Below, piece after piece: positions 28,409 to 55,718 of a stretch of DNA of 56,383 nt. Source of the stretch: Bacteroidota bacterium. Its GTDB lineage: Bacteria; Bacteroidota; Bacteroidia; AKYH767-A; OLB10. The position numbers and the translations under genes are program-made. Location of the stretch: assembly GCA_024643795.1 (NCBI GenBank), contig JAHEMF010000013.1, forward strand, positions 1-56,383, in the 5' to 3' direction. Numbering within the stretch: the stretch's first letter is position 1; every line of letters begins with the position of its first letter. Under the pieces are notes generated by a model. It saw only the letters and a program-made list of their open reading frames with translations, was not told the DNA's origin and did not search any database.

Positions 28409-28573
28409 GACTTGTTTGCATATCGTCCATTGGATGTAATTAATTGCAAATCAATATGATATATTCAAAAAAATATCACTTTCGCCCTGATTTAGGCGCA
28501 TAAAAGGGGGTTGGCCTATCCAAAATGCCCATTGAGCCACAATTATTTAGACTATCACAATTACCTTCGCGCC

Positions 28574-29140
28574 ATGGTAAATATCGCCGTTTTTGCTTCG
28601 GGTGAGGGAACCAATGCCCTCAACCTTATCCAACATTTTCAATCGCACCCTAAGGCCCGCATAACTTTGGTTGTTTCCAATAACCCCCACGCAGCTGTAT
28701 TGGCAAAGGCGGTTAGCAATGAAGTAGAAACCATTTTAATTATCAAAGAAGAACTAGCCGGTAATGCACTGGTTGAACAGCTTAAAAAAAGGCAGATCAC
28801 ATTCATTGTACTGGCAGGGTTTCTTAAACTTCTCCCCGAGTCTCTTATCAATGCATTTCCGCATCGCATCATTAATATACACCCGTCACTGCTTCCGAAG
28901 TTTGGCGGTAAAGGCATGTATGGGACCAGGGTACACCAGTCGGTCATTGATTCAGGCGAAAAGGAAACGGGCATCACAATACATTATGTGAACCGTAATT
29001 TTGATGAAGGTGAGATCATAGAATCATATAAAACGCAGGTGTCTGAAAACGACACGGCTGTAACGCTCATGCACAAGGTCAGGGAGCTGGAGTTGAAATA
29101 TCTACCTCTGGTAGTGGAGAAGATCACAGATCAATTGTAA
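28574..29140 (+). CDS. purN: phosphoribosylglycinamide formyltransferase
   Basis: This enzyme transfers the formyl group of 10-formyl-tetrahydrofolate to GAR in purine synthesis. I chose the ATG at 28574 (MVNIAVFASGEGTNALNLI), giving 188 residues; an upstream TTG frame adds 21 residues without homology. The active-site segment RIINIHPSLLPKFGG supplies the Asn and His, and the conserved Asp-containing loop is in VIDSGEKETGITIHYV. A TACCTTCG just before the start may be the -7 box, which would leave almost no leader. Confidence 0.94.
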   Translation: MVNIAVFASGEGTNALNLIQHFQSHPKARITLVVSNNPHAAVLAKAVSNEVETILIIKEELAGNALVEQLKKRQITFIVLAGFLKLLPESLINAFPHRIINIHPSLLPKFGGKGMYGTRVHQSVIDSGEKETGITIHYVNRNFDEGEIIESYKTQVSENDTAVTLMHKVRELELKYLPLVVEKITDQL

Positions 29141-29188
29141 TCATTCATTTTATTTTTTGGGCGTTCGCTTCGTCCGGTACTTTGGTTG

Positions 29189-29256
29189 GTACTTCGACAA
29201 GTACTTCGACAAGCTCAGCACAAGCTCAGCACAAACTCAGTACCGGCTCAGCACCG
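29189..29256. repeat. tandem repeats, 12 bp x2 then 11 bp x4
   Basis: GTACTTCGACAA occurs twice back to back (29189-29212). It is followed by four 11-bp units: GCTCAGCACAA twice, then ACTCAGTACCG and GCTCAGCACCG (29213-29256). From memory, the related string CTTCGACAAGCTCAGC is a common dispersed intergenic repeat in Bacteroidota and other bacteria; I cannot check that here. Confidence 0.85.
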
Positions 29257-29393
29257 GGTGCTCGCTTGTACACGCCTCCGCACTATGTGCTTCGGCGGGG
29301 TAGCTCCGCTCGCCACTTAACACTAAAACTTATACTTATTAAGTGTTGAACATATGCTGTACAATCAAGAATAGTGACTTTGCAAGATAAATT

Positions 29394-29468
29394 ATGGAGT
29401 GGAATCAGCGTATTGTATCCGGGGGAGATGGCCTCCCCTCCCCGGATACAATTTATTCAATAAGGTAA
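29394..29468 (+). CDS. possible 24-residue small reading frame
   Basis: An ATG at 29394 opens 24 codons (starting MEWNQRIVSGG, ending IYSIR) to a TAA at 29466-29468. TGACTTTG at 29375-29382 is one mismatch from the -7 box and lies 11 bases before the ATG. The 13-bp stem at 29412-29452 lies within the frame, so the frame may be a by-product of that hairpin. I assign no function. Confidence 0.15.
   Translation: MEWNQRIVSGGDGLPSPDTIYSIR
29412..29452. repeat. perfect 13-bp inverted repeat
   Basis: ATTGTATCCGGGG (29412-29424) pairs exactly with 29440-29452 around a 15-base loop that can form a few further pairs. Neither side has the T run of an ordinary intrinsic terminator. It may end transcription weakly for purN or fold in an unannotated RNA. 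Confidence 0.75.
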
Positions 29469-29488
29469 TATGTGTAAAGAGCTGTTTA

Positions 29489-29539
29489 GGTAACGGTGGA
29501 TCATGTCCGGTTAACGGACAATATCATTGAGTTAACGGA
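29489..29539 (-). promoter_or_regulatory. three direct 9-bp repeats at 21-bp spacing, LytTR-site-like
   Basis: On the minus strand the repeats read TCCGTTAAC (29539-29531), TCCGTTAAC (29518-29510) and ACCGTTACC (29497-29489), each separated by exactly 12 bases. LytTR-domain regulators such as AgrA bind pairs of 9-bp direct repeats with a GTT core and 12-bp spacing, so this fits such a site. No gene starts nearby, which is odd for an operator. Confidence 0.4.
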
Positions 29540-29657: not shown

Positions 29658-30410
29658 TTATTTATGGAAGTATTGTGCCAGTTTTTTGAGTGGCTTGCGA
29701 ATAGTGGTGAGAAATCCGGGTTTAAGATCGTTCAGCTTCCATGCCATCTTATCTTCAATGTTTGCTTTTAATTTTACGAAAAAGCTGGTATTGCTTATTC
29801 CACCCATCCGCATCATTACAATTGTTTCAGGAAGGTAGTGCACTTTTATTTTTTGTTTATGAATGAACCGAAGCATCAACTCATAATCGGCTGAGAGTTT
29901 GAGGCTCGTATTGAAGTTGCCATATTTTTCATAAACTTCTTTTTTCACAAAGAAAGTAGGGTGGGGGGGCATCCATCCTTTTTTAAATGACCCTTCTTCA
30001 TAATCTCCTGCTTTCCAGGTACGGAGTACTTTATCCGGTTTGTTGCGATCCACAAATACCAGGTCAGCATAAACAGCTTCTATCTCAGGATCAATGGCGA
30101 AAGCCTGAGCTACCTTTGACAAAACTTTCTCATCCGCATAAAGATCGTCGGAGTGTAACATACCTATCACATCTCCGGTGGCCATTTCAATGCCTTTATT
30201 TAAGGCATCATATAATCCTTTATCTTTTTCTGAAATGAACTTATCGATATGCGCTGCATATCTGTTTATCACAGGTACGGTCTGGTCAGATGAAAGTCCA
30301 TCAACAATGATATATTCCTTGTTCGGAAAATCCTGTGACAGTACCGACCTTAAGGTATCTTCTACTGTATTTTCACTATTATAAGTAATGGTAATGATGG
30401 AGATCTTCAA
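29658..30410 (-). CDS. glycosyltransferase family 2
   Basis: This 250-residue cytoplasmic or membrane-associated transferase adds a sugar from a nucleotide donor. The GT-A fold begins SIITITYNSENTVEDTLRSV, with IIVDGLSSDQT and the metal-binding motif HSDDLYAD (about 88-95). The region ISEKDKGLYDALNKGIEMATG is typical of the WcaA/WfbV-like subgroup. It is the last gene of the polysaccharide operon. The sugar it transfers cannot be predicted. Confidence 0.9.
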   Translation of the reverse strand: MKISIITITYNSENTVEDTLRSVLSQDFPNKEYIIVDGLSSDQTVPVINRYAAHIDKFISEKDKGLYDALNKGIEMATGDVIGMLHSDDLYADEKVLSKVAQAFAIDPEIEAVYADLVFVDRNKPDKVLRTWKAGDYEEGSFKKGWMPPHPTFFVKKEVYEKYGNFNTSLKLSADYELMLRFIHKQKIKVHYLPETIVMMRMGGISNTSFFVKLKANIEDKMAWKLNDLKPGFLTTIRKPLKKLAQYFHK

Positions 30411-54936: not shown

Positions 54937-55718
54937 TGAAGTTCAGGTTAATACTCGTAATATTTATTTTCTTTGGTGTTGCAGCTGTTGCTCAGAAGTT
55001 TCCTGAGCCGCAATCACCACCTCGCCTTGTAAATGATTACATCGGTGCTTTGACCAAGTCGGAGCTGCAAAGCCTGGAAGCCAAATTGCTTTCATACAAT
55101 GATACTACCAGCACCGAGGTTGCAGTTGTCATCATTGAGTCTACTGATGGATATCCTATCGATGACTATACTTTCAGACTGGGTGAGAAGTGGGGTATCG
55201 GTCGTGCCGATAAAGACAATGGAGTACTGGTACTTGTAGCGTTAGGTGATCGCGATATTTTTATTGCCACCGGCTATGGAATGGAAGGTGTGCTGCCTGA
55301 TGCCATTGTAAAAAGGATCATTGAAAACGATATCAAACCGGCTTTTCGTGCCGGTGATTATTATGGCGGACTTGATGCAGCAACAACGGATATTATTCTG
55401 GCAGCAAGAGGTGAATATACAGGTAGCGGCAGTAGAGCGGCGAAAAAATTTCCATGGTTCATCATTCCCATTTTTCTTTTGATATTCATCATACCTGTAA
55501 TGGTTGCTACCCGAAAAGCAAAAAGATACGCAGCACTCAATGATATTCCTTTCTGGACTGCATGGATGTTGCTCAATCAGGCCAGCAGAACTCACCGTCG
55601 CAGTAGCGGAGGTCCGTGGGGTGGCGGAGGCGGATGGTCGTCTGGCGGAGGCGGAGGTGGCTTTGGCGGCTTTGGTGGTGGAAGCTTTGGTGGCGGTGGT
55701 GCCGGAGGAAGCTGGTAA
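54936..55718 (+). CDS. TPM-domain protein with membrane anchor and Gly-rich tail (YgcG-like)
   Basis: This 260-residue protein has a signal peptide (MKFRLILVIFIFFGVAAVAQ), a periplasmic TPM domain (LVNDYIGALTKSELQSLEAK, VEVAVVIIES-like strand, RDIFIATGYGMEGVLPD), one transmembrane helix (FPWFIIPIFLLIFIIPVMVA, about 170-190) and a C-terminal tail of mostly Gly, Ser and Phe (SSGGGGGGFGGFGG). This is the YgcG layout. Its ATG overlaps the preceding stop by one base, making a lemA-TPM-TPM unit. Confidence 0.93.
   Translation: MKFRLILVIFIFFGVAAVAQKFPEPQSPPRLVNDYIGALTKSELQSLEAKLLSYNDTTSTEVAVVIIESTDGYPIDDYTFRLGEKWGIGRADKDNGVLVLVALGDRDIFIATGYGMEGVLPDAIVKRIIENDIKPAFRAGDYYGGLDAATTDIILAARGEYTGSGSRAAKKFPWFIIPIFLLIFIIPVMVATRKAKRYAALNDIPFWTAWMLLNQASRTHRRSSGGPWGGGGGWSSGGGGGGFGGFGGGSFGGGGAGGSW

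Follow-up and report, generated by a model that had tools for sequence, protein, structure and literature searches.

A probable LytS/LytTR-activated promoter of a short hairpin RNA, recurring in the genome of a Bacteroidota bacterium

Three direct repeats are found at positions 29489-29539 of a contig of a Bacteroidota bacterium (assembly GCA_024643795.1, contig JAHEMF010000013.1; the whole stretch of 56,383 nucleotides is called the window below), between a purN-like gene and a polysaccharide operon. The best reading of these repeats, to which a probability of about 0.7 can be assigned, is that they are part of a LytS/LytTR-activated promoter of a short untranslated hairpin RNA. The reading is carried by features that appear directly in the sequences, namely the boxes, their fixed offset from a promoter, the hairpin, the recurrence of the whole unit in the genome and the order lytTR-lytS-unit in two relatives. 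A target of the repeats seems likely, and both gene neighbourhood and spacing speak for this regulator family.

In the proposed mechanism, the three repeats would be bound by an activator, a LytTR response regulator working with a LytS-type kinase. The regulator would be the product of a gene near the right end of contig C6 of the same genome, and the C-terminal part of the kinase would be encoded at the right end of contig C37. The phosphorylated regulator would bind cooperatively to the three boxes, which at a spacing of 21 bp, or two helical turns, share one DNA face, just upstream of a promoter of the Bacteroidota type (TTG at -33, 20 bases, TAnnTTTn at -7). Activation would turn on a short untranslated RNA beginning with a GGGGnGGGG hairpin and acting, presumably, by base-pairing or by protein binding. 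We infer the binding of the regulator, the activation, the start point and the length and action of the RNA from the sequence features described below.

All three repeats of the window lie on the minus strand. The boxes TCCGTTAAC (29539-29531, in repeat unit 29519-29539), TCCGTTAAC again (29518-29510, in unit 29498-29518) and ACCGTTACC (29497-29489, in unit 29477-29497) start at steps of exactly 21 and 21 bp, where a sequence-only reading had placed them. An exact 9-mer pair with a third copy (at most two mismatches) at period 21 was met in none of 300 dinucleotide shuffles of the window, and 60 shuffles contained two such triples over periods 10-45 (0.033 each). Both the presence and the non-random nature of the repeats are confirmed. 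LytTR sites consist of imperfect 9-bp direct repeats with a 12-bp gap, and the boxes of the window, imperfect 9-bp direct repeats placed 21 bp start to start, bear out the LytTR-like geometry noticed earlier.

Immediately downstream, on the same strand, the position of the -33 element (29476-29478) reads TTT in the window and TTG in the other seven of eight aligned copies. The -7 element TAAATTGT (29448-29455) follows 20 bases after it. The promoter consensus of Bacteroidota, as given in the consulted part of PMC7366714, has TTTG near -33 and TAnnTTTG at -7; the same part notes that in Flavobacterium johnsoniae no -33 motif was detected. Judging by position, transcription would start at 29443; this is the first G within GGGGAGGGG, and four bases separate it from the -7 octamer. 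The conserved hairpin GGGGnGGGGAG..CTCCCC (29421-29443, minus strand) would form the 5' end of the RNA. With this start, the box Gs would stand at -93, -72 and -51; the boxes lie just upstream of the promoter, the proximal one near -50 to -60 as in the systems compared below. A longer, perfect 13-bp inverted repeat, ATTGTATCCGGGG / CCCCGGATACAAT (29412-29452), surrounds the same hairpin and could also stop read-through from either side.

The predicted unit reads on the minus strand, from about 29443 in the direction of the purN-like gene and not into the polysaccharide operon; its transcript, if long, would run antisense to purN at the 3' end of that gene. One of the targets suggested earlier, an antisense transcript entering the operon, is unsupported because the boxes and the promoter share the operon's own strand and read away from it. 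The other suggestion, an unannotated small RNA, looks likely: downstream of the repeats come a promoter, always at one distance, and a hairpin, and the unit recurs in the genome. The statement that the repeats have no gene to regulate is true of protein genes only.

The search advised for further copies, which used the 9-mer pair at a period of 21 bp, was of limited help. The 2.88-Mb genome has a single exact pair, and one near pair, on contig C49, is a true relative of the window unit. It was among seven pairs with up to three mismatches, which were not enriched (15 in the reversed control); 23 other genomes of the family held one pair with a single mismatch (control: two). Taken alone, this search misleads because the commonest box of the genome is CCGTTCCC, not CCGTTAAC. 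A scan for non-coding repeats in a 456-kb sample of the genome (criterion 19 of 30 matches) yielded three sites at lag 21, the window and two others; the remaining lags from 14 to 35 gave 0-2 sites each, and therefore the count at lag 21 says little by itself. Between the C49 site and the window unit, the alignment is free of gaps from the first repeat up to the -7 region, and a GC-rich hairpin like that of the window unit is present on C49. As was found by a hairpin-pattern search, sites of this kind occur on C34, on C49 and in the window, with none in the control. A triple-box pattern (up to three mismatches) matched nine times versus six in the reversed control, the nine comprising seven units, one overlapping register at C37 and a match at C42. 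Eight copies at six places were assembled from the two patterns and by inspection: the window (contig C98), C49, C34, C51, C37 and three tandem copies on C24, 146 bp apart.

The eight copies align gaplessly over 93 bases and share one layout, in which three 21-bp repeats are followed by TTG, 20 bases and TAnnTTT or a near match. Counted from the first repeat, TTG stands at offset 61 in 7/8 copies (TTT in the window) and T[AT]nnTT at offset 84 in all eight. The GGGGnGGGGA hairpin starts four bases after the -7 octamer in seven copies; C37 is without it. Positions 4-6 of the box are GTT in 23 of the 24 boxes. Between the six dispersed loci, identity amounts to 73% in the box cores (positions 1-12), 47% in the rest of the repeats and 31% in the 20-base promoter spacer, whose sequence identity is close to chance and whose length is constant. 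BLASTN at E 0.01 was run on 16 flanking pieces from eight loci, each of 400 bp except one that is 311 bases long; no match between loci was found upstream, and the downstream matches were confined to a motif similar to Flavo-1 RNA (C49, C51, C97) and a 15-bp match (C24, C30). The three C24 copies resemble one another as a tandem duplication would. Motifs are kept while the spacer and flanks diverge, and therefore the units appear to be co-regulated promoters, not recent copies of an element.

Two models were built from these units. Model R1 (93 positions, sequence only, eight copies) also matched C30, C81 and C97 of the same genome (E 5e-5, 2e-4 and 1e-3), besides three chance-level matches above 0.3. 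C30 and C97 each have one clear box with a promoter and a hairpin. The C81 match (L162:1499-1590) lies between purK- and purE-like genes, is without the hairpin and is doubtful. Model R2, comprising the third box, the promoter and the hairpin, recovers nine units of the genome with E <= 1.3e-11, all of them in its training set; the genome has at least nine hairpin units.

The gene context was counted for eight loci, which are those with the hairpin and C37. In the direction of the unit, the following gene is convergent at six and co-directional at two (C30 and C97), C24 being counted as convergent by passing over an open reading frame of 93 aa taken as spurious. At C30, the signal recognition particle RNA lies between the unit and the next gene. 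The gene behind the unit is on the same strand at six loci and divergent at C24, and C51 lies at a contig end. Searches of Rfam gave only a chance-level match in the window (snoTBR17, E 0.6, below the cut-off), no match over the units at the other loci of the genome and only two weak sub-threshold matches at five loci of relatives. A motif similar to Flavo-1 RNA (RF01705) was seen downstream of three units on the same strand (L141:1837-1886, plus; L148:1371-1322, minus; L163:1686, plus), at two of them as a sub-threshold Rfam match and at the third by pattern and BLASTN. It also occurs once at L135:2887 with no unit seen nearby.

The link to a regulator comes from related genomes. When R1 was run against 42 genomes of the order, with E values taken per genome, full-length matches outside the genome of origin were found only in G009 (E 1.7e-5) and G014 (E 5.7e-5), with a weak partial match in G020 (0.005). 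In both G009 and G014, genes of a 245-aa regulator and a 978-aa kinase and then the unit follow one another on one strand, and the first repeat overlaps the last codons of the LytS-type kinase gene. According to Pfam, the G009 regulator consists of Response_reg and LytTR, and the kinase of Reg_prop and His_kinase (LytS-type); the G014 proteins are 99% (regulator) and 96% (kinase) identical to their counterparts. The promoter of this unit reads TTG-N20-TTCCTTTG and is followed by a candidate RNA of about 100 nt. In G009 this stretch has a strong predicted fold (z -3.1) and ends in an intrinsic terminator, and a second unit follows with two boxes and another strong hairpin that is not called as a terminator.

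The genome of the window encodes five LytTR proteins. Contig C6 ends with a LytTR regulator gene followed by the N-terminus of a kinase (58% identity over 50 aa to that of G009), and the last gene of contig C37 encodes a kinase C-terminus (33% over 323 aa), the stop codon of which shares one base with the unit. The C6 regulator is the best match of the genome to the G009 regulator (46% over 247 aa); three of the other four LytTR proteins reach at most 31.5% and one gives no match. We infer that C6 and C37 are adjacent and that the order lytTR-lytS-unit exists in this genome too. The C37 unit, which lacks the GGGGnGGGG hairpin, is by its position the apparent counterpart of the G009/G014 unit. 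The stretch of about 104 nt after its promoter folds well (z -4.3) and has a strong hairpin, and a terminator scan calls nothing there. Elsewhere in the genome, on C30, a direct repeat CCTGTTTCAG with a 21-bp period (L128:5537-5568) lies between a LytTR regulator gene and the next minus-strand gene; it is possibly a site of another LytTR protein of this bacterium.

Known systems offer partial parallels. VirR, RgaR and FasA are members of the LytTR family. The FopS RNAs of Bacteroides thetaiotaomicron are reportedly a paralogous small-RNA family linked to the RNA-binding protein RbpB and, compared by description only, resemble the present units as paralogous small RNAs in Bacteroidota. A close counterpart in layout is RgaS-RgaR/SpoZ of Clostridioides difficile, where a VirR-like regulator acts on an intergenic small RNA; in the consulted part of the report, G-51 and G-72 of the direct repeats, 21 bp apart, were mutated in the spoZ promoter and reported necessary (PMC10602386). 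The agreement with the -51 and -72 positions of the window is only suggestive because the start used here is a predicted one. Unlike the present units, SpoZ is described there with two boxes instead of three, as one small RNA with a site, with a Firmicutes sigma factor and with rgaS and rgaR genes that are not contiguous (PMC10602386). In VirSR of Clostridium perfringens, paired direct repeats phased on one DNA face lie upstream of the promoter, and the regulon includes the regulatory RNAs VR-RNA, VirT and VirU; unlike here, the targets include protein genes, as far as the excerpts go (PMC2838878, PMC10602386). FasBCA-FasX of group A Streptococcus has a ComE-like regulator and a proposed site before a small-RNA promoter in the same four-gene locus, whereas it is a Gram-positive system with one RNA and the kinases FasB and FasC, and the consulted part of the source does not mention dispersed paralogous units (PMC12675982). 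In AgrCA-RNAIII of Staphylococcus aureus, a LytTR regulator binds two direct repeats upstream of an RNA promoter, but RNAIII also encodes a peptide, and each promoter has two boxes, of which the proximal is centred near -60, according to the part available (PMC4227749).

Hairpin units also occur outside the genome of the window. In 23 other genomes of the family, R2 gave weak but clustered matches in seven (55 at E <= 0.1, including 24 in G015 and 13 in G023), and it gave none in 18 genomes from other families of the order. Inspected by eye, the majority of the sites listed for relatives show TAnnTTTn, four bases, GGGGnGGGG and a hairpin, preceded by other upstream boxes. A class-wide search for the pattern TAnnTTT-N5-GGGGnGGGG matched in 37 genomes out of 395; where a listed genome has a single match, this is often a run of G. 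More than three matches were found only in the genome of the window (7), G325 (27) and G403 (7), with zero in the reversed control of these three, and the units of G325 and G403 again have other upstream boxes. Tandem arrays of promoter plus hairpin, spaced by roughly 100-350 bp, were observed in G015 (L197, contig C90, 400-2630) and G325 (L253, contig C29). Covariation across genomes was assessed on 49 distinct arm pairs from 100 sites, 15 of which were dropped for the absence of CCCC. Inner position 1 is paired in 35/49 (shuffle mean 22.6, highest of 2000 shuffles 32), position 2 in 34 (mean 23.3, highest 34) and position 3 in 26 (mean 27.0). At two of the three positions, the inner pairs vary with compensation beyond the level of shuffles. 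This is support and not proof, because the sequences are related.

A bolder reading than the main one, with a chance somewhat below even, is that these units form an undescribed RNA family of Bacteroidia that starts with a GGGGnGGGG hairpin at a TAnnTTTn promoter and is patchy and multi-copy, with some tandem arrays. Its lineages would be wired to different boxes, LytTR-like triple repeats here and others in G015, G023, G325 and G403, the window unit being one LytTR-wired member; the amount of RNA may be what matters, the RNA sponging up a protein or another RNA.

Several observations weigh against the LytS/LytTR reading of the window repeats. G009 and G014 belong to one genus and are nearly identical at this locus, so they count as one event, and a contig break separates C6 from C37. 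Within flanks of up to 1.5 kb, four of the five LytTR genes of the genome have some 21-bp pair at loose thresholds, none with CCGTT boxes; the single exact pair there is CCTGTTTCA. Of all copies, that of the window has the poorest promoter (TTT and TAAATTGT); its unit shows no clear terminator or RNA end, and the RNA predicted for it folds no better than shuffles (z 0.19). Hairpins of the genome's own copies display no covariation beyond that of shuffles (171 of 500 reach it). The hairpin unit comes with different upstream boxes in G015, G023 and other genomes, and therefore the hairpin and the LytTR-like boxes are separable. Finally, the boxes fit the LytTR consensus [TA][AC][CA]GTTN[AG][TG] only partly: of 24 boxes, two agree at 8/9 positions, twelve at 7/9, nine at 6/9 and one at 5/9, with a random expectation of 4.25.

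The last two points also speak for a cooperative regulator outside the LytTR family that reads the 21-bp repeats and activates the same small-RNA promoter, the departure from the consensus being chiefly at positions 8-9. Such an activator is nevertheless unlikely: the unit lies at the end of a lytTR-lytS pair in G009 and G014, an order that the genome of the window appears to share, and both the spacing and the -51/-72 position match the VirR-like site that was mutated in C. difficile (PMC10602386). It is less probable still that the element is a repeated intergenic terminator, the hairpin ending transcription of the upstream gene and the repeats belonging to its 3' region. The predominance of convergent downstream genes and same-strand upstream genes (6/8 loci each) would suit this, as would the perfect 13-bp stem into which the window hairpin extends. 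A terminator, however, would have no need of three phased boxes with TTG-N20-TAnnTTT at a constant offset from them, and the C24 upstream gene is divergent, which leaves the three C24 units without a gene whose transcription they could end. In the C37 and G009 units, moreover, the boxes and promoter come with a different hairpin about 100 bases later. A T-run, which would also suit a terminator, follows the hairpin at 2/8 distinct sites of the genome, 9/27 in G015, 3/20 in G325 and 0/20 in the other groups; on these counts a role of the hairpin solely as an intrinsic terminator is not general and was rejected.

The combination of GGGG and a hairpin is also reminiscent of repetitive extragenic palindromic (REP) elements. 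Spread by a transposase, as a mobile or REP-like element that codes for nothing itself, would account for the multiple copies, the C24 tandem and the hairpin arrays of G015 and G325, yet it seems very improbable. The dispersed copies are alike in motifs only (spacer 31% versus box cores 73%), their flanks are unlike except for the Flavo-1-like motif and the 15-mer, and the end-to-end likeness of copies that characterises REP elements or miniature inverted-repeat transposable elements was not found between the six loci. Tandem arrays with 21-bp units in other families of the order, namely in G041 (L100, L105, L113, L116), G034 (L101, L117), G027 (L102, L118) and G030 (L103, L108), were considered as the same element and rejected, as R1 has no match there at E 0.01. 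Their sequence differs from array to array, and where inspected they lie mostly or wholly outside convincing genes; in G027, G030 and G034 the reversed control equals or exceeds the real sequence in such arrays, and in G041 it has none.

The genes that flank the window unit are convergent, as had been described. The purN-like formyltransferase gene (28511-29140, plus strand, PF00551, start perhaps at 28571) ends facing the unit, and the family-2 glycosyltransferase gene (29658-30410, minus strand, PF00535) lies upstream on the same strand as the unit, with 118 bases from the gene end to the first repeat. A DNA search of 41 genomes with the 517-bp intergenic gap gave, outside the genome of origin, only two matches, of 23 and 38 bp, in the repeat-rich part. 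The purN-anchored comparison with relatives reached a best identity of 54% and found no close relative. The GC-rich, repeat-rich stretch after purN (29157-29330) contains short tandem repeats GTACTTCGACAA and ACAAGCTCAGC, and parts of it (29247-29329) recur on C36, C27 and C25. Elsewhere in the window, exact 9-mer pairs at period 21 are confined to a G-rich repeat, TGGCGGAGGCGGA, at 55622-55655.

LytTR-family systems acting through small RNAs have been described in Gram-positive bacteria, in the consulted parts of the reports (PMC10602386, PMC2838878, PMC12675982, PMC4227749). For Flavobacterium columnare, LytTR proteins were counted and candidate small RNAs reported, the two not being joined in the part of the source available (PMC5395568). 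A literature search for LytTR together with small RNA in Bacteroidota, with most subscription journals outside its reach, found no case where they are joined. If the LytS/LytTR reading is true, several RNA genes missed by annotation are under the control of one switch, with targets predicted to the base, and the role of many LytS/LytTR pairs of Bacteroidota would become directly testable. A motif with seemingly no gene to regulate may mark RNA genes.
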